Shown one piece after another: positions 2,644-24,803 of a DNA stretch of 24,803 nucleotides. The notes beneath the pieces are model-generated. The model did no database searches. It was not told where the DNA came from and was given only the letters and a program-made list of their open reading frames with translations. Position numbers and translations under genes: made by a program. The DNA is from Spirogloea muscicola (Eukaryota > Streptophyta > Zygnematophyceae > Spirogloeales > Spirogloeaceae), in NCBI GenBank assembly GCA_009602725.1, contig WELB01000067.1, forward strand, positions 460,250 to 485,052, given 5' to 3'. Numbering within the stretch: position 1 is the stretch's first letter; the number at the start of each line of letters is the position of its first letter.

Positions 2644-3704
2644 CTAAAAGTCAAGGCCCGCCTCACGAGCCGCATCAGCCAGAGCCTGAATGCGACCATG
2701 GTAGATGAACCCGCCGCGGTCGAACGCCACCTTGTTGATGCCCTTGCTCAGGCAGAGCTTTGCGAGCTCCTCCCCCACGCGCTTGGCGGCCTCCTGGAGC
2801 CAATGCGGCGCTCGAGCCAGGGCAACACCAAAAGCGTTAATGTTGTGCGTGTGCAGCCGCAATGGTGCTGCAGGCTATAAACGTGGGCGACCGGAAGCGG
2901 GCAGCAGAAGGCAAGAGTGGGGCCGACCCAGGGGAGCTCTCACAATGGTGGGGCCAGCCGTGAGCTTGAGCTCCTCGCGGAGCGCGGCCTGGACGGTGGA
3001 CGCAGCGGCAATCGTCACGCACTGCGTGTCGTCGATGACCTGCGCGTAGAGGTGCTTGTTGGAGCGGAACACCGCCAACCGCGGCCGCTCCGTGGTGCCG
3101 CTCAGCTGCGGCCGCAATGGAATTAATGAAAGTGTCAGCGTCGACTGCCGCGGCTCTCCGATCCAACTAAGCTTTGATGAACGGCACGAGGCGAGGCAGC
3201 TTTGTTCCTAGACGGGTTTCCCGCTTAGATGGCTTCAACGTCTCATAATAAGTGACGGTTCAGCTCCTTTTATTCCTCTTCTTCGTCAATCCTCCTCACT
3301 AATAGACCAGGTGCCGGGCCGGGCCGGCATGGCGGCGCCCATTAAACCCTGAACCGACCAGCCACGGCAGCGGCGTCGACCGCCGAAGGTCTCTCGCGGC
3401 GCGCCCGGGCGCGGCGCCCGCAGGAGCAGCCGGCGGCTCGGCTCGGACCTCTTGCCCGTAACAATGGTGGAGGCGCCAGGTATCGATCCCGGTACCTCTC
3501 GCATGCCAAGCGGGAGGTACCGGCGGAGGCCGGCGGGGGAGCCGCGGCAGGCGCCTCACCTTCCGCCGGATCCGCCGGTGGCGCGTCCGCACGTTCTCCC
3601 GCCGCGTCGGGCCTGCCGCCTCCACCGCCAGGCAGCCCGGCGCCACCGCCGCCGCCGTGGCGNGCTGGCGCCGGCGCGACGGCGGCGGCGGCGGCGGCGG
3701 CCAT
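2644..3704 (-). CDS. PRPL18: Plastid 50S ribosomal protein L18 (uL18c), nuclear-encoded
   Basis: This is a large-subunit protein of the plastid ribosome; the L18 family binds 5S rRNA in the central protuberance. Three exons join in phase: 3704-3560, 3105-2944 and 2793-2644, giving 151 residues. The first 30 or so residues are rich in Ala, without acidic residues until a single Glu, and could be a transit peptide. The basic stretch [10 protein letters not shown] ends exon 1. Exon 2 carries [20 protein letters not shown] and ends GPTI. Exon 3 carries [14 protein letters not shown] and ends in the classic [11 protein letters not shown]. Introns are GTGAGG...CAG (454 bases) and GTGAGA...CAG (150 bases). 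The ATG at 3704 is in frame with exon 1 only if the ambiguous N at 3663 is left out, so that base is probably an assembly error. The family identification is secure; the exact N-terminus is less so. Confidence 0.92.
3175..3252 (-). pseudogene. LSU rRNA 3'-end-like fragment in L18 intron 1
   Basis: Read on the minus strand, the stretch around 3236-3212 is close to the conserved 23S segment that in bacteria and mitochondria reads about CTGAA(A/G)GCATCTAAGCGGGAAAC near the 3' end. The core ATCTAAGCGGGAAACCCG is at 3230-3213. Similarity fades on both sides, so it would be a short decayed organellar insertion or chance resemblance. It has the same orientation as the host gene and lies wholly in intron 1. 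Confidence 0.35.
3468..3523 (-). pseudogene. tRNA-Ala 3' half, anticodon arm extended into a 14-bp hairpin
   Basis: On the minus strand 3509-3468 reads as an anticodon loop with GGC, a GCGAG stem strand, a 5-base variable loop, a T arm (CCGGG-ATCGATA-CCTGG), the acceptor strand CGCCTCC and discriminator A. This is a eukaryotic tRNA-Ala 3' half. The 5' half (acceptor strand, D arm) is absent. Instead the anticodon stem runs on as an inverted repeat: 3489-3502 pairs with 3510-3523 over 14 bp with one mismatch and a 7-base loop. It lies in intron 1 of the L18 gene and cannot give a normal tRNA. Confidence 0.7.
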
Positions 3705-3734
3705 GGCTGCGGCGGGCAAGGAGCTCTGCGGCGG

Positions 3735-3753
3735 GGGTTTAGGGCCCTAACCC
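3735..3753. promoter_or_regulatory. Telomere-repeat-like palindrome upstream of L18
   Basis: GGGTTTAGGGCCCTAACCC, a near-perfect palindrome of two head-to-head telomere-like units, sits 31-49 bases upstream of the L18 ATG. In plants, telo-box motifs (AAACCCTA type) are common in promoters of ribosomal protein genes. The match here is to the telomere repeat rather than an exact telo-box, so a regulatory role is inference. Confidence 0.35.
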
Positions 3754-6691: not shown

Positions 6692-9600
6692 ATGGCTGCT
6701 CTTGTGGCGCCGTGCGGCACCACATTGGCGGCCGTCTCACGCGGCCTCCCCGGCAGTGGTACACGCTGTCGATGCCGGCGATGCCGCCAGCCGCGCTTGC
6801 CGTCGACGCGCCACAGATCACGGATCTTCTTCATCGCGGCTGCGTTACTCAGCAGCAGCTAAAGACTGATGCGTCTCATATCCAATGGCAGTCGGTTTCC
6901 CACTCAACGTGAGCTCTTATTCCCGCTTGCGTGCTGTCAACAGGACAGCAGGAGACCCTTTCGCTGCCGGCGTCGGCGTTCTTCGGATCCAATGGCGGCG
7001 CCGTGCGCAGGCCATCGCACAGCCGCGCGGTGTGGCGGCACCGCCAACGAGCGGGGCAGCAGGGTGGTGCCACCGTCATGACTTCCGACTTTGAGCGCAC
7101 CAACTCCTACGCCGACGAGCTCAAGTGCACAGCCGCGTACATCTGCCAGGCTGGCAAGGGCATACTCGCCTCCGACGAGAGCAATGCCACCACCGGAAAA
7201 AGGTGCGCACGCCCTGTCCAAGCTGTGGGTTGATCTGCCAATGCCGACTTGATGAGAGCAGCTGATTGCTGAAACTTGGCATGCTGCACTGCTATCGCCG
7301 CTCAGTCACGTGCTAAATGGCCTTGCAAGGCCATCACAGCAGCATCCCTTGGTGATGGATGAGATAACTAGCTGTATTGCTTCTCCAAGCAGGCTCGCCT
7401 CAGTTGGAGTTGACAACACCGAGGATAACCGACGGGATTGGAGAGATCTTCTGTACAGCGCGCCTGGCCTAGGGAATGTATGCAATCTGCACTAATTGCA
7501 GATCCAGAGGCTGCTACTGCGACTTGGCTTGGCCAGCAATAGCCTCATTGTCAAACTGTAGATGGAGACTGGTTGAGTTGTTGCTTCACATCTGCCTTGG
7601 AAAAGCATGAAAACACATGTGCATTCACAGTCCAAGCTTGTGATGAGATCGTGCATGCATAGCTCATGGCTGTCATCAGCTTCGACATCTTGAGAGTCTC
7701 AAACGACATCTTGAGAGTCCTTCTTGAAGCTGCTCATACAAAGTAGAGCAGTAAGGTGATAGGCGCATCTCACTATGTAGCCATTGCCTGAGATCGCATC
7801 AGGAGGCTAATGACATTGCTAGTGGCTGCAGTACATAAGCGGCACAATCATGTTCGACGAGACACTCTTCCAGTCGTCGCGTGAAGGCAAACCCTTTGTG
7901 GACATCCTGAAGGAGCAAGGGATTGTCCCAGGTATAAAGGTCGACACAGGACTGCAGCCAATTGACGGCACTGATGGGGAGACAGCTACCCAGGGTCTTG
8001 ACGGCCTCGCTGATCGCTGCAAGAGGTTAGTACAAGGCAGTGGGCTTTGACATCAATGAGATGCTGCACTGCATATGATGTCCTCTTTGAAGCTCCATAC
8101 ATTCAACCGTAGCCTTTTGGGAGCAGGTATTACCAGCAAGGGGCCAGGTTTGCCAAGTGGCGAGCTGTCATCAAGGTGGACGCAAGCACTTGCCCATCAT
8201 CCGTCGCAGTTGTGGAGAACTGCCATGGGCTGGCTCGCTATGCTCTCATTTGCCAGGTCTGTCTGTGCCGCGGTGGTGCCCCGGTCAAAACTAACCCCCC
8301 CTACCCCCCACCCACCCCTTCCATTTCTTCTCAAGTCGTGGCCAAGGCAGTCATAGGCAGATAATGGCAGGCCGCTGAGCTTGCTAAGTCAATAACAGTT
8401 CTCTATAAGAGCTTGCACTGACAACCTGCTGGCAAATGTTCTGCATTCCAAGACTTGCCCTACAGGTTCTCTAGGGTAGTGGAATCAGTGGTAATCTGGT
8501 CACCATGGTGACTTTGTGGCAGGCCAATGGCCTTGTGCCAATAGTGGAGCCAGAAGTGACTCTTGGTGATGGCGACTACAGGTTCTGCCTATACCCCCAA
8601 GTGTATAGCTCTACTGGCTCGTGCTGCATATGTCAAGGTCTGCACAGACGAACATGAAAGTCTTATCCACAGGTTGATTTAATATGGATGTACATTTTTG
8701 CTGCTACGATCACAGCATTGAGAGGACGGCTTATGTGTCTGAGATGGTGAACTCCCATGTTTTTCGGCTACTGAATGAGTACAAGTATGACAAGCCCCAA
8801 TATTCTCTTTGTGTCGGCAAATTTGTTTGCTAAAGCACTTGGTACTTAATGATACATGCATCTTAGACTCTTGTGCTAAAATTTCAATTGATCCATCAAC
8901 TGATCGGAAATGGTCGGTTCCTAAAATAAGCGTATGTAAACAATATTAAAGAGATTGCTCACACCCTCAGCTATTCGCTCTTGCAGTGTCATGCTGGAGG
9001 GTATCTTGCTCAAGCCCAACATGATCTTGCCAGGTGCATTGTGGTCGACGTGCTCCTGCCTCGTGATTCTGCACCTACGCAACGAAGAGAAGCGAGGATG
9101 CACATTGTCATAAGCGTCAAGAGTACTCAACTGTGTTGTCTCTGAGCCCCTTGCAGGCCTTGATGTCCCGACTCCTCCACCACAAGAAGTCGCAGCTTAC
9201 ACAGTCCGAACGATGAGGAGATCAGTTCCTGCTGCCGTGCCTGGTACATGCACCACACGAGCAGGAACTCAACGATGGAGTTGTTTGCCCTGCCTACTTG
9301 TGTACAAGCAAAGTGTTCCTTTCTTGCTTGATAAGATGATGCTGTTATTTGTGCCTGCAGGCATTCACTTTTTATCGGGCGGGATGAGCGAAGAGGAAGC
9401 AACACTCAATCTGAATGCACTGCAGGTGAGTTGGTAGAGCAAGTGGACACATGCGTGCCTGTCTACTTTACTGGTCATGCACGGCTGGTCATGGTCATGA
9501 ATAGGCCCCTGCACCTTCTCCTGATAACTGCACACACGCATTTACACTCCAGGCGTTTGGTCCGCAACCGTGGGCCCTCACATTCTCCTATGGACGCGCT

Positions 9601-16468: not shown

Positions 16469-18561
16469 TCATAGCCAGTCATCATCCCGAAACTTGAGCG
16501 CAGGGAGTGCAACCTGCTGCTGCTCCTCAGGCTCCATCTCCAGCTCAGGCTCAGGCTCGGGCGCCTGGAACTCGGGCGAGTCCAGGTCGGCGAGATTCTT
16601 GAGGTCCACCATGGAGAGGTTGTCGAGTCGCCGGATGACCAAGTCTGCTGCACTCAGCTCGTAGGCAGGATGCCTCCCGGTCGTGCAGATGCACTGCAGG
16701 GCAACACAGCATACCAAGATCAGAAGTCAAGCCTAACACCTTGGCTGCTGCAATCTGCTTCTGCTTCTGCCGAGCTTCTTATAACACCTCACAACAAAGT
16801 GCAATAAATGCAGTAACTCAGCGGCGGTATGTATGCAGGCGGCCTGTAGCGACCTTCATGAGCGAGTCATGGGCAGCTTCGACAGTCGAATTAGAGTTGC
16901 CGACCACAATGCAGCGCTCAGGGATATATTGCAGTAGCTCCGCAGCGTACTGCAAGCGCCAGGCATGACGATACAATGTAAGTACCGATCAAATGATCTG
17001 GGTCTGCCATTGGTGATTACGTACTGCATGGCATTCGCGTCACAAAGCCAGTACCTGGAACATTTCCGGGTCCGGCTTCCCGCGGTACACGTCCTCTGCT
17101 GCGACCACGACATTGAAGAAGCCCTCCATGCCGACTGCCTCCATGGCTCGCTCTAGGTACTTCTTTGGGCGTGTGGAGACGACGGCCACGGGCAGCTTGT
17201 ACTTCCGGAGCGTCTCCACGAAGTCCCTGATGCTCCCAAACACTTCCTCAGCAGCGCTACAAACCAAGGACTCGCTTGCAGAAAAGCTAGCAATGTTCTA
17301 GCAAAGTTGGTCAAAGTGACAACTGGCAGCAGTTATCCAAGAGATCCAAAACGCCGGCTGCTCGTCCAGATTGATACAAGAAGCTGAGGCTGAGACTAAG
17401 TTGTGAATGGACAGGCTAGCAGCCTCGGATGGGCCTCAGCAGATGCAAGCTGCCAGTCAACTCCGTGTTGATTTACTGGCGCCAAGGCTGATTGCCACTT
17501 AAAACCTCCTCAGAGGAGTCAAGGAAGCAGACCTGGCACCCGGGCGAAGGCGGTAGCAGCCGCCTTGCATTGCCTCGTACAGCTCCTCCTTGCGAGCCGC
17601 GAGGCGCCGCACCGCCAGGAAGTCGCGCGACCAGCACAGCACTTCCTGGATCGCCTGCTCGTTCTTCATGCCCTCCACCTTGCGCAGCACGAACGCCATC
17701 GGCTGCCGGCCAGCCAGCGAGCGCAAGCCAAGCAAGCAGAATGAGCAGAAGCAGTGAGAGGAGTAGCTGTTACGGCACTCATCAGCTTGATTGAGAAAAA
17801 CCCTTAACTAGTTAGTAGCTTAAGTAATAGCAAGCCAGTGTTTCCAAATAAGACAGACCTAAAATCATTTCTGGGCAAGTGAGAGCCAATGGCGGATGAA
17901 GCAGGCCCGACGAGAGCCGAGGGGCGGCGCATCCGCAGCGGCGTACCTGTGGGCGGCCCTCCTCCTCGGCCAGGGCTGCCCATGCACGCCGCTCGATCTC
18001 GCTGTCCTCCTCCACCATCACGCCCTCCCACTCGACGATTACCGCCAGCCAGCCGCAGCCCATGCGCTCGAGCCGCTGCAGAGGGTTGTTGAGCGACGAG
18101 TCGTCTGCCCGATTCTTCCTCGGCAGCTGCGCACGCGACACGGCGGCAGGGGGCTTCAAGGACAGGCAGATGGGTGAGGCTCGGGACGACGAGCGGGACA
18201 GCGGCCATGACGACAGGCTTGCACTGGCAGTCAACTCTGTGCTCCATCGGGACAGCACTAACCGCCATAGATAGGAGACACTGCGAAGAGCATCTTACAA
18301 TATATGACTCTTGACCAAGAGTAAGCAACGCATGGAGACCAAGAGGGGGGATAATTGAAATCCATTTTCCGCAGTGGCGTAGCTGGGATGTACCTGAGCC
18401 GGAGGCAGGCGGGGCAGTGGGGAGTCCTGGATGAAGGACGTGATGTCGAGCGTGCGGTAGTCCCGCCCGCCGGGCATGACCGCCTCCTCGGCCGCCTCCG
18501 CAGCCTGCGCCCGCACCAATGACCGCCCGCTGGTCGACGGCGCCAGCCCGAACGCCTCCAT
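16469..18561 (-). CDS. PYRP2: HAD phosphatase PyrP2-like (riboflavin pathway)
   Basis: Resembles plant PyrP2 (Arabidopsis At4g11570), a phosphatase for 5-amino-6-(5-phospho-D-ribitylamino)uracil in plastid riboflavin synthesis. Six exons join in phase: 18561-18394, 18126-17947, 17702-17533, 17256-17055, 16949-16854 and 16693-16469; 346 residues. Family blocks in order are NNPLQRLERMGCGWL, VEWEGVMVEED (motif I region, 87-97), VEGMKNEQAI with EVLCWSRD, VAVVSTRPKKYLE (motif II, S200/T201), EDVYRGKPDPEMF (motif III, K233), ERCIVVGNSNSTVEAAHD (motif IV) and a Glu-rich tail ending DDDWL. Motif I has E88-W-E90 where the HAD superfamily normally has DxD, and motif IV has N258 where Asp/Glu is usual. 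I recall land-plant PyrP2 sharing EWEG, so this may be a family trait. The N-terminus (MEAFG) is not a clear transit peptide; an upstream exon may be missed, because AG precedes the ATG closely. Confidence 0.88.
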
Positions 18562-18684
18562 ACCTGGCGGCCCACAACGCTGCCGTGAGCGACTCGCCGG
18601 CGAGGCGGCAATGGACCAGACAGGCCTCGCCTCAGGTTATGGCGCGTATCCCATTCCCATAGGTGCCCGTGCTCGCTGGCGGCG

Positions 18685-18718
<34 letters not shown>

Positions 18719-19339
18719 AGGGTAAACGGACCTAGGTGGTCCAGCAGAGTGGCGTCGCCATGGCGGAGGAGGCTCCGGGCGCCGCCGCCATTGGCGGCCG
18801 CCAGGCATGAGGGCCCGGCGCTGGCGACCTGCGGCGGCTCGGGCGAGAGGAAGGCTCTGGCGCAGGCGGCGGCGGCGNGAGCCGCCGGCGGCGACGGCGG
18901 CGGCGGCGGCGATGGCGGCGGCGGCGGCGGCGGCGGCGGAGGACGACGCGGCGCCGGGAGAAGGTGCGGGAATGCGAGGCTGGGGTGGCCGCTTCCTGGG
19001 CAAGGCCCCTGACGGGACGGTAACGGCGGCGTTTGAGAGCTGTTTCCGTCCTGGTGGCGTTGCGTCGCGGGGCGTTACGGAAGGCGCCACGTCGGCCCGC
19101 CGACCGGGCCCCCGGCGCCGCGTGTTGGGCTTGACGCCCATCCGCGTGGCGTGCCCGGCGGGTGACGCCGCTTCGTTGACTCATCTCGCCGTTTGAGAAC
19201 GGCCGCCAACGGAAAGTGGAGCTTCGCTCGGGCGCCGTTACCAGGTCGCCAAGATGGCCCGTGTTCACAATTCTCGTTGGGACGGAACGGCTTTTGTAAG
19301 GTCAGCCTCAGATTCCAGGAAAATGCAGCTTCTTGGAGT
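18562..19339. other. PyrP2 upstream region with CGG repeats
   Basis: Very GC-rich. (GGC)n microsatellites lie at about 18686-18718 and 18884-18940, with an ambiguous N at 18878. Open frames on both strands are Arg/Ala/Pro/Gly-rich shadows of these repeats. Probably the promoter and 5' region of PyrP2; a first exon with a transit peptide could hide here, but I could not identify one. Confidence 0.5.
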
Positions 19340-20424: not shown

Positions 20425-23400
20425 TTATCTGGCCTGCTCTGGTATCAGCACTGCTGCCTCACTGGCGCTCTGCCGCACAAATTGACCGCGCACGCGAGGA
20501 CGCTGCTCAGCCAGGCGCTTCCGGCTCTGGTAGCGCACCTGCGATTATGCATGGGGCCAGCTGTCAATTGGCTGTTTGTTGACTTGTATGCAGTATTGAC
20601 AACCACCAACCACGGATCCTCAAACCCAAGAAAATAAGCGCAATTTCATCAAATGGACAGATGGAAAGCTGACCTTTTTCTCAAAGCACCGCTCCGTACG
20701 CTTCTGCCGGAACTTGGTCAGTGCAGCTTCCCGCCTGGCCAACCGATTATGAGCTGGGCCGACAACACCGACACCAGAATCGCTGGCTGTGACGGTGTGA
20801 CCATTACCCCAAGGACTACCACTCTTGCACCCACCGCTTTCCGCATCAAGCCTGCCAACCACTGGGCTGCCGCTGTGGCTCCCATTCTGTGCCACCTGGT
20901 TGCTGCCGGCGCCACTCCCGCTGCCAGCTCTGCCACCGGCACCACTGCCGCTGCCAGTGCCGTTACAAATGTAACCCTGGCTGCCGCCGCTGCCATTGTC
21001 TGCCAGAGACATCTCAAGGTTGGAGCTAGCAGCCATTGCCAGTGGTCCAGTCGCCTCCTGCTGTGTAGCTCTTGCAGCATTGAACTGGTCCAAGGGTGGT
21101 CGCCGGTGATGGTGCTGGTGGTGGCCTCCGCTGTGGTGATGATGATGGTTGTGGTAATGCTGCCGTTGCGCATGTGCATGAGTATGGCCGCCGTGCTGGT
21201 AGTGGCGATAGTGCGGCAGTTGCGGCGGGCCACCATATGGGGAATCCTCAAAAGAGCCGCCAATGCCGCCACCGCCACCGCCGTTGCCACCGCCGCCGCC
21301 TCCGCCGTAGTGTTCCTGATCCAGGGCCCACATGGACGGTGGGCCGCCAACGCCACGTTGGTAGAAGAGAGGGTGCACGCCATACGGAGGCGAAACATGG
21401 CCCTTGAAGCCGTGCATGCCAGGTGGCAGCGCCACCACAGGCAGCCCGCCGGCTCCTCCATTACCAGGGTCGTCAGAGCCCTCATCCTCCAGTGGAGCCT
21501 GACCCGCGTACATGGGCCCTGGTTCTCTGTGAGCAGACGTAAGTTCTCATCATGTCAGGTCGTCATCCACATGCTTATTTTTCATTGTTGGCGACAAGAA
21601 AAAACTGTGCCTCTTGAAAACTTGCTGGCATGTAGTGACTGTTAGCAAATGCTGATAGAAGAAGTAATAAAAGTGTGACACGCTGCACAAGTTCTCTGCA
21701 GAATGGCAGGCCAGAGGAGTTAGGAGAGGGTTCCCTACCTCCTCGGGCTGCTGATCTCCTGGTTATGGCCTCCCCCATTGTGGGGATACGGCGACTGCTG
21801 CTGAGTGAGCACGCCACTGGTGCTGTACCTGCACAGCACCATCGAGGCAACCAGGAGCTGCCAGGTTCAGAAGGACGACCACTGTCACAGCATCGTGCCT
21901 GACTATCGCAATCAAGGCTAATCAGGTTAACAATGTGCATGTAGATGGCCTGCTCATGGGTGCTGCTTCTGACCTTGAGAAAGCGGAGCCACCAGACTGG
22001 TGCAGGACGCGGCGCTCCTCTTGCTGCTCCTCCTCCGACTCCCGCGGCCGCTTCAGCGTCAGTTCCAGCAGCGGCAGGTGCTCGCCATCGTCCTCATCGC
22101 CAGAGCTCTTCATCTTGGGGCTGTTGCTGCCGCCGCGGTCGAGCACCTCGTTGCCCTCAGCATCGCAACGATCATCCAGGTCAGCCTCGTCCTTGCCACT
22201 GTTGCTGCCCAGGGGAGACTTGGCATCGTTGCTGCCACCACTGGCCCTCCCGCTGCCGCCGCCACCACCACCGCGGCCACCGCCCCCACCTCCGCCCCCA
22301 CCTTGCTGCTTGATCGGCTTGTTGGCCATGGCGCCAATCAAGTCAGCAGCGAGGATGGACGTTGAGCCACCAGATCCATCATCATCCTGTGCACCATCAT
22401 CCCCATCCTCATCAACATCGTCATCCTCCTCCTCATTGTCCTGCTCGCGTTCCTTGTCCCCGTCCATGCAGGCCTCGCTGCGACCTGCGCCTGAGGTGGA
22501 TGGCCTCTCGTTGGGCGACGGCGAGGACGTCGGCGTCGGCGAGTGCGACTGTGGGCTGTCCTTGCGCAGGTCCTCCCCAACAATCGCATCCCCGGCTGGT
22601 AGATCCTGCGGTATGTCCTCACCCATGAATCCAGACGTGCCACTGCCGCTGCCACTGCCGCTTGACTGCGCACGAACAGACATATCCCAGCAACTTTGCA
22701 ACAGAGTCAAGCCAAGCGCCTGACATACTCAGATCTTGCACTGCGGACAGGATCTTCCACAGCATGGTCGCAACAGCAGATGTGCGCAGCAGCAATAGAG
22801 CACTCACGCTGTTGCACTTGCGCCACACATGCTGCCAGAGATTCTTGAGCTCGTTCTTGCGGACAGGCTTCACGAGAAAGTCGGATGCGCCCTTCTGCAG
22901 GCACTTGAGCACCATGTCTATGGAGTCCAGCGACGACATCACTGCGCGAGTGGGCAGCCAGAGGATTCTTTTATTAGGTCCTTGAAAGGACAGGACTAGC
23001 AGTGCAAATGATAGACTAATGCGATGACACTGTCGCTGTGGTGGTGGCAGAATGTCCAATTACCTGCCTGATTAATGTGGATGGCAACGAAGCAAGTTAC
23101 GGGAGAAGAAGTGAGTAGCAGAGGGAAGGCGCGGCTTACTGATCACGGGCACGCGGCGAGAGATGTCAAGCTGCATGATCTTGGTGAGCAGCGCGATGCC
23201 GCTCAGGCCGGGCATCACGACATCCGTGAGCACCAGGTCAAACCAGTTGTTCCGGTCCTCCAGGAGCTCCAGCGCCTGCTGCCCGTTGGACGCCGGAATC
23301 ACTGCAGTGCAGGTGCCTCTAATTGCGTCAGCCCTGGACGACAAGACCACAGTAGCAGTGCGGAGCCCAGAGCCACAGTGGCTTACTGGACAGCCACTCT

Positions 23401-24104
23401 AAACTGAAGTCTGCAAGTCTCTCATGTGTCCTTGCTGGCTGTCTACCATTGTGATACAAAGAATGGCAGCCAGACACTTTGGCAGGAGGCATGCGAGATA
23501 CAGGACGGAATGTGGTGGTGGAAAAGTTGCTAGATGGGCAAAGGCAAAGTTGGGCACAAGTAAGGTGGTGGTAGCAGAGGCCCTCACCTTCATAGTTGCA
23601 ATTCCTCAGGAGGGCGCCGACGACATGCCGCGTGGAGTCATCGTCCTCCACGAGCAGCACCTTGAGATGGCGCTGCGGCAGGAACGACTCCCAGCACATC
23701 TGCGGGCCAGCCTCCACAACAGCGCCGCCTTCATCGCTCTCCGAGTCCATTCCGCGCCCGCGGCGGCCGCTGCTGGTGCTGTCGCTCTCTGCTGCGCCCG
23801 CTGCCGCCGCAGCACCGGCCGGGTACTTGGCGTCGAGCTCTCGGCGCACTAGCTCCAATGCCGCCTCGTCCTCCTCGTCGCCGCGCCGGATGAGCGCAAT
23901 TTTGCCGAAAACGCCGTGCACGACCTCCGCAGCCCGCTGCGGCTTGGCCAGGGATTTGGCGCCGGCGGCCGTAGCGGCGGCGCTGGCGTCGGCCTCGCGC
24001 TTAATGGGCTTGGCGACGAAAGGCTGCAGCGTGCTGGCTCGCGCGCGCGGGCTCTGCCCGTTGGCAGCCGTGTTCCCCATGATGGCAATCTCGGTGCTCC
24101 TCAT
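20425..24104 (-). CDS. PRR: PRR-family clock regulator: receiver plus CCT domain
   Basis: A nuclear transcriptional regulator of the PRR family of the green-lineage circadian clock. Seven exons join in phase: 24104-23588, 23301-23140, 22941-22808, 22665-21974, 21828-21739, 21526-20674 and 20538-20425; 853 residues. The receiver domain is residues 147-271: [56 protein letters not shown]. The acidic pair (E153/D154), D199, S229 and K251 are all present, so it keeps a phosphorylatable site; land-plant PRRs usually have Glu at the D199 position. A Ser/Gly run follows the receiver, as in plant PRRs. Residues 471-475 (LELTL) form an LxLxL repression motif, followed by the conserved SAFSRYSTS. A His-rich stretch is at 637-674. 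The CCT domain starts at 797 ([20 protein letters not shown]) and is completed by the last exon ([20 protein letters not shown]). Poly-Gly tracts are coded at about 22255-22305 and 21260-21310. Confidence 0.94.
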
Positions 24105-24331
24105 GATCGGCGTCGCCGCAAGGATGGCAGCGTCGTCGGTAACGGCGGCGCTGCCCCGCCTGCCGAGCTACGGCGGCGGCGCCGATCCTCCTCCGGCGAA
24201 GGTGGCGGCCAACAGACCCCGGCCTGCATCGCACGGCCCTGCCGTGCCCCCTGGCCCCGCGCTGGTCTCTCGGGGCAACGTAGCGGCTTCCCGAGCGAGG
24301 CCAAGAAGCGCTGCGGCGACAACCGCGGCCT

Positions 24332-24370
<39 letters not shown>

Positions 24371-24803
24371 GGATGGCGGTGGGGGAAATATCAGCCGTGA
24401 TGTAAGGCGGTGGGAGCGATCGAGGGGGGGGGGGGCCTGACCCGCCATAGCCAGCCGGGGGGGCTAATGGCCGCCCGGCAAAAGATCTGTGGCACGGGTC
24501 CGGCATCCATAGCCGCGGTGGGGGGGGGGGCCGCGGAGATATTTCGTCGCGCCCGGGGTGCGCCGTCGGATGGCGCGCATCGGCGGCCGCCGCGGCGCAG
24601 CCATCCGCGGGCGAAAAGCGGAAAAAGCGCGCCGCCGACGTGGCCGGATCTTTAGCGCGCCGCGGGGTGGGTCGCGCCGTGATATTTCCGGCGGGCCCGA
24701 TCCGTTCCTGGCCAAGCATTGGCCCGGGCGCGGGCGGGCCACCTGCCGCGCGGCGCGTGGCGCCACCGCGCGGCCCCCACGCGTGCCGCCCCAGCGGCTG
24801 GCG
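24105..24803. other. PRR upstream region
   Basis: Very GC-rich, with a (GGC)n tract at 24332-24369 and G runs of about 12, 7 and 10 bases at about 24424, 24458 and 24521. Open frames here are repeat shadows. No divergent gene is recognised before the window ends. Confidence 0.5.
24386..24687. promoter_or_regulatory. Three evening-element-like AAATATC sites
   Basis: AAATATC occurs at 24386-24392 (+), 24544-24538 (-) and 24687-24681 (-), each preceded by G. The middle one, GAAATATCT, matches the plant evening element AAAATATCT at 8 of 9 bases. The sites lie about 280-580 bases upstream of the PRR ATG in DNA where such AT-rich words should be rare. Evening elements bind CCA1/LHY/RVE-type MYB factors that control PRR genes in plants. 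Confidence 0.45.

Follow-up and report, generated by a model that had tools for sequence, protein, structure and literature searches.

A clock-type PRR gene, probably from a green alga, that keeps the active-site residues of a working receiver

Introduction

A working receiver is described as requiring two acidic residues, a central Asp, a Ser/Thr, and a Lys, and plant PRRs as typically carrying Glu at the acceptor position (PMC12632262). In the same paper, about 80% of bacterial pseudo-receivers carry a non-acidic residue at the second of the two acidic positions (PMC12632262). Loss of the Asp is stated for the Arabidopsis PRRs in two reviews (one of them PMC9486492), and the EAR (LxLxL) motif of PRR5, PRR7, and PRR9 is reported to bind TOPLESS (PMC8408442 and PMC7415786). 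According to section 12 of PMC5638080, TOC1 is split from PRR3/7; that section assigns one TOC1-type gene and one gene of the other PRR type to Klebsormidium, and considers it unclear whether TOC1 or the remaining PRRs are the closer kin of the O. tauri and C. reinhardtii genes.

Several green algal proteins depart from the Arabidopsis condition. Ostreococcus TOC1 is reported to keep the Asp (PMC3130137, PMC3017809, and PMC12704426), and it is proposed to receive signals from two light-sensing histidine kinases (PMC12704426). In 2010, the Ostreococcus protein was described as the only such case to date (PMC3017809). A 2017 paper goes further and reports the DDK motif (i.e., a potential true phospho-acceptor) in the PRRs of both Ostreococcus and Chlamydomonas, naming one Ostreococcus and two Chlamydomonas genes and suggesting that an ancestral phosphorelay has been partly kept (PMC5508029). 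The original prediction made for the locus described here, which cited a prasinophyte TOC1 as retaining the Asp, is thus right for Ostreococcus but too narrow, as the Chlamydomonas PRRs retain it too (PMC5508029).

The original prediction also set the locus against the land-plant PRRs, which were said to have lost the Asp; this stands for Arabidopsis but is too broad for land plants as a whole. In Satbhai et al. 2011, the DDK motif is reportedly kept in PpPRR2, PpPRR3, and PpPRR4 of the moss Physcomitrium patens, just as it is here (compared by description), and PpPRR2 is said to carry out phosphotransfer in vitro. Another moss PRR, in which the DDK motif has partly diverged, reportedly transfers no phosphate, and PRR receivers therefore seem to vary in activity. 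If these moss data hold, the contrast belongs with flowering plants rather than with "land plants." PpPRR2, PpPRR3, and PpPRR4 are assigned to the PRR7 clade in section 5 of PMC9486492.

Results

A seven-exon gene encoding a REC-CCT protein

The window (i.e., the whole stretch of DNA that was analyzed; 24,803 nucleotides) carries a PRR gene at positions 20425 to 24104 of the minus strand, for which we predict seven exons; once joined, they give a single uninterrupted frame that ends in a stop codon after 853 codons (Table 1). The six introns removed are 286, 198, 142, 145, 212, and 135 bases long (in the order from 24104 to 20425), and all six have GT...AG borders. The start codon is bounded by an in-frame stop codon at 24170, the first one upstream, and translation could alternatively begin at M9 (24080). 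The span marked in the original prediction (22808 to 24104, minus strand) is exactly exons 1 to 3 of this longer gene. Exon 7, and with it the latter half of the CCT, lies beyond the part that had been marked. The G+C content is 0.642 in the coding sequence, 0.72 at third positions, and 0.504 in the introns, values that agree with a real gene model.

Table 1. Positions of the predicted exons, the protein features, and the upstream motifs of the PRR gene within the window
Feature	Positions	Strand	Remarks
Exon 1	23588..24104	-	N-terminal extension and receiver start, with E153/D154; GT donor
Exon 2	23140..23301	-	Receiver center with D199; 162 bases, both borders in phase 1
Exon 3	22808..22941	-	Receiver end with S229, F248, and K251, then tail; splice model
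Exon 4	21974..22665	-	Ser/Gly linker, acidic and Gly-rich stretch, LELTLKR; splice model
Exon 5	21739..21828	-	SAFSRY (residues 498 to 503) crosses the exon 4/5 joint; splice model
Exon 6	20674..21526	-	Gly/His-rich stretch and first half of CCT; splice model
Exon 7	20425..20538	-	Second half of CCT and stop codon; full CCT only after splicing
D199 codon (GAT), phospho-acceptor position	23222..23224	-	Aligned with PleD D53 and the ARR1 Asp
LELTL, EAR-type LxLxL motif	22054..22068	-	Residues 471 to 475; sole LxLxL in 853 residues
AAATATCT, evening-element variant	24537..24544	-	Sole copy in the window; sense strand of the gene
GATATTTC, first copy	24385-24392	-	No copies in the window beyond these three
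GATATTTC, second copy	24538-24545	+	
GATATTTC, third copy	24681-24688	+	

In the spliced protein, Pfam Response_reg covers residues 149 to 260 (E 5.3e-26; profile positions 1 to 108 of 111) and CCT covers residues 797 to 839 (E 3.5e-17), while no third Pfam family was found at E values up to 0.01, and neither a GARP nor a Myb domain, as expected of a type-B regulator, was found at that threshold. The unspliced frame that contains exon 2 (23072-23398) gave a Response_reg match with an E value of 1.7e-09, and the one that contains exon 6 (20620-21546) matched half of the CCT (E 1.9e-05, below its cut-off).

The protein has the N-terminal receiver-type domain and C-terminal CCT of the clock PRR/TOC1 architecture. 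A Ser/Gly run directly follows the receiver, and LELTL and SAFSRY lie further along, before the CCT; LELTL stands between the two domains, which is where repressors of the PRR5/7/9 type have their EAR (LxLxL) motif. The SAFSRY motif and the Ser/Gly run are marks of PRRs, and Arabidopsis PRR7 and PRR3 likewise have a Ser/Gly run after the receiver. ARR1 also has a complete receiver, but its output domain is the DNA-binding GARP where the window protein has a CCT. The predicted REC-CCT protein of the clock-PRR kind is borne out by the two Pfam matches, and we regard the assignment to a PRR-type gene as nearly certain.

Two other ways of reading the DNA were rejected. A chance frame is ruled out by the E values of the domains together with the spliced open frame, and an unspliced reading meets a stop codon if intron 2 or intron 6 is kept. 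As a separate observation, exon 2 has the same phase at both ends, so that skipping its 162 bases would preserve the frame and delete D199; such skipping could serve as a switch between receiver-plus and receiver-less forms, the latter without D199 and the receiver center.

An intact receiver active site

The receiver contains E153 (GAG), D154 (GAC), D199 (GAT), S229 (TCG), and K251 (AAG), and F248 occupies its aromatic switch position. An acidic pair, D199, S229, and K251 had been predicted originally, and the splice model and the alignments confirmed them, residue numbers included. Under the definition of a functional receiver by the residues DD, D, T, and K, five of five are present in the window protein. 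HMMER aligned D199 to D53 of PleD, the phospho-acceptor of that protein, and to the corresponding Asp of ARR1.

A search of prokaryote genome contigs with a PRR alignment (the window protein and four provisional PRR rows) provided 50 bacterial receivers with identities of 25 to 44%, of which 46 were kept (L009, L030, L047, and L050, with fewer than 95 residues, were dropped). In all 46, the column of D199 holds D, that of K251 holds K, and that of S229 holds S or T. The columns of D154 (D) and E153 (D or E) are each conserved in 45 of the 46, with one gap.

The five provisional Arabidopsis PRR rows all have Glu at the D199 position and N, A, or S at the D154 position; in PRR7 and PRR3, unlike in the window protein, the two positions hold Glu and Asn, respectively. 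While the choice between D and E at residue 199 hangs on a single third-position base (GAT versus GAG/GAA), D154 is encoded by a separate codon, and its intactness is a second sign that the active site has not decayed. The feature that defines a pseudo-receiver (i.e., absence of the phospho-acceptor Asp) is lacking here, since D199 is present; because algal PRRs are also reported to keep the Asp, we file the protein as a REC-CCT protein of the PRR family and not as a pseudo-receiver. That the active-site residues are intact in the genome is hardly in doubt.

Relationship to PRRs and other receivers

For the identity counts and trees, the rows of five Arabidopsis PRRs were provisional reference sequences, and the letters of ARR1, CONSTANS, and HD1 were taken from structure matches. 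The receiver shares 81/122 residues with the provisional row of PRR7 (66%), 75/122 with PRR3 (61%), 68/122 with PRR5, 67/122 with PRR9, and 47/122 with TOC1, compared with 53/118 (45%) for ARR1. The CCT shares 39/43 residues with provisional PRR7 and 32/43 with provisional TOC1, against 23/43 with CONSTANS and 20/43 with HD1. The receiver thus appears nearest to PRR7, a lead that is judged against provisional sequences. Among solved structures, the nearest to the receiver by sequence was that of the type-B regulator ARR1 (E 8.6e-26; best 60 of 264 matches), and those nearest to the CCT were HD1 and CONSTANS (three matches in all at E values up to 1).

In a tree of 54 rows (the window protein, the five provisional PRR rows, ARR1, PleD, and 46 bacterial receivers), a branch with support of 99/89 held the window protein and the five PRR rows on one side. 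On these provisional rows, the protein falls with the PRRs, apart from ARR1, PleD, and the 46 bacterial regulators; they give no sign of the position outside the PRR clade that would count against the original prediction. ARR1 was the next to join the PRR side (98/84). The window protein stood beside all five Asp-less PRR rows and not inside them (99/91). With respect to the PRR3/7 subfamily, PRR7 and PRR3 are the closest by identity, while the position in the tree is outside them (both with provisional sequences). An eight-row tree gave the PRR side a support of only 80/78 (provisional PRR rows), and in the 54-row tree TOC1 was nested among the rows of PRR3, PRR5, and PRR9, unlike the published split. 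Since the PRR rows are provisional, the clade placement is a lead only.

The spliced receiver and CCT gave 5 and 49 pattern matches, respectively, against viral contigs, and the spliced receiver gave 21 against prokaryote genome contigs; none was confirmed. The PRR alignment (the window protein and four provisional rows) gave 39 pattern matches against the viral contigs, with no relative among them. Because these collections consist of viral contigs and prokaryote genomes, they are uninformative on PRRs, and absence of PRRs there carries no meaning.

Upstream motifs and neighboring genes

The 699 bases upstream of the PRR gene have a G+C content of 76.3%. The evening-element variant AAATATCT sits 433 to 440 bases 5' of the start codon, and the same 8-mer is listed as the EE of B. 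prasinos TOC1a (PMC12704426, Table 1). Of 10,000 local dinucleotide shuffles, 17 produced it upstream; against this, the expectation across the whole window is 0.25 copies, and 22 of 100 shuffles contained it. The full evening element AAAATATCT is absent. Matches to it with at most one mismatch number two, each of them upstream (a count that 1 of 2,000 local shuffles reached), and those with at most two mismatches number four upstream (2 of 2,000 local shuffles) and 36 across the window.

A second motif, GATATTTC, occurs three times upstream, a count that none of 5,000 dinucleotide shuffles matched, for a motif first picked by eye. When corrected for this choice (i.e., any 8-mer with an expectation of at most 0.02 that is seen three times), the test was passed by 10 of 3,000 shuffles. 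The second copy (24538-24545) overlaps AAATATCT. An evening element lies upstream of algal TOC1 as well (PMC12704426), and the candidate variant offers no more than a lead that a CCA1-type MYB may time the PRR gene.

The Pfam analysis also covered 20 further open frames. Two of them, at 6913-7230 and 8940-9110 (plus strand), hold pieces of a class I fructose-bisphosphate aldolase gene, with Pfam Glycolytic E values of 1.1e-05 (above the cut-off) and 8.9e-04 (below the cut-off), respectively, and the solved chain nearest to the first piece is cytosolic fructose-bisphosphate aldolase 6. A piece of an L18-type ribosomal protein (2875-3207, minus strand; Pfam Ribosomal_L18p, E 2.7e-16) and one of a HAD-type hydrolase (17043-17297, minus strand; Pfam HAD_2, E 2.4e-11) were also found. 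These neighbors fit a chlorophyte and a streptophyte host equally. The window contains no tRNA genes and no Rfam matches at the gathering score. Simple repeats rich in GGC/GCC are located at 3646-3747, 18661-18974, and 24304-24417 (among 22 copies listed, of one family). The only two N of the window (3663 and 18878) lie inside the first two of these tracts, where the assembly may accordingly be weakest.

Discussion

What the sequence itself shows is the gene model with its protein architecture and the presence of all five catalytic residues of the receiver. The explanation that we consider probable is a clock-type PRR gene of the green plant lineage (REC, linker, EAR, SAFSRY, and CCT) whose receiver never degraded and whose product would be a phosphate-switched repressor; the host is probably a green alga. 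Ostreococcus tauri TOC1 and Chlamydomonas CrPRR1 and CrPRR2, compared by their published descriptions, likewise combine REC with CCT and are reported to keep the phospho-acceptor motif (PMC5508029, PMC12704426, and PMC3130137). We infer that the Asp at D199 is the ancestral response-regulator state, retained in this gene as in other algal PRRs but replaced by Glu in the PRRs of flowering plants. Retention of the ancestral state would account for the kept phospho-acceptor, and what the original prediction proposed as an intermediate may simply be a gene that kept this state.

In the mechanism that we envisage, a sensor histidine kinase would pass phosphate through a phosphotransfer protein to D199. 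Phosphorylation of a receiver reshapes its face around the Ser/Thr and aromatic switch residues. Phosphate on D199 would accordingly be expected to alter the face around S229 and F248 and, with it, dimerization or the choice of partner. The state of the receiver may then tune the repression of clock genes through the CCT and LELTL, the latter with a TOPLESS-type co-repressor, and the gene itself would probably be timed by a CCA1-type MYB at the upstream AAATATCT. We put the chance that D199 is phosphorylated in vivo at roughly even, and we find it possible, at somewhat below even chance, that such phosphorylation feeds the clock.

The receiver residues could instead be kept while the phospho-switch goes unused, the domain serving only in dimerization and partner binding and the Asp surviving by chance or for folding. 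There is precedent in the Arabidopsis PRRs, which function without the Asp and use the domain for homo- and heterodimers (PMC9486492). However, the five catalytic residues are intact together here, including the metal-binding D154, which occupies the acidic position that is more often lost in bacterial pseudo-receivers (PMC12632262), and the motif is reported to be kept in other algal PRRs too (PMC5508029); we therefore regard an unused switch as unlikely, though well worth bearing in mind. A sequencing or assembly error that reads Glu as D199 in an otherwise ordinary PRR is very unlikely. Such an error would require only the one third-position base that divides GAT from GAG/GAA, and the window does contain two N; the codon itself is uninformative on this point, since GAT is common in the gene (25 GAT and 30 GAC among its Asp codons). 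Against an error, D154 is intact as well, at a position where none of the five provisional Arabidopsis rows is acidic (N, A, or S), and Asp is what would be expected in an algal PRR (PMC5508029).

The best structural match of the receiver, to ARR1 at an E value of 8.6e-26 with no PRR receiver named among the best 60 of 264 matches, would suit a plain type-B response regulator, or a non-PRR regulator with some other output domain. Several observations argue for a PRR instead: a CCT is present and a GARP absent, the receiver is 66% identical to provisional PRR7 versus 45% to ARR1, the CCT is closer to provisional PRR7 and TOC1 (39/43 and 32/43) than to CONSTANS and HD1 (23/43 and 20/43), and the tree groups the protein with the provisional PRR rows at 99/89. 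We consider a regulator from outside the family extremely improbable.

The reading of an undegraded, phosphate-switched PRR is only modestly surprising, because retention of the Asp has already been reported in other green algae, and the locus looks like a well-preserved further example of known algal PRR retention and not like a new kind of protein. If the host were a chlorophyte, a PRR3/7-type repressor with a working receiver (LELTL, SAFSRY, Ser/Gly linker, and CCT) would predate the split between chlorophytes and streptophytes, a scenario that we judge improbable; a chlorophyte host together with true membership in PRR3/7 would make the finding more interesting. The passage of plant clock regulators from phosphate-switched to phosphate-independent proteins is an evolutionary question, and a protein that joins PRR7-like repressor parts to a receiver with none of its catalytic residues missing lends itself well to testing whether the switch still works.
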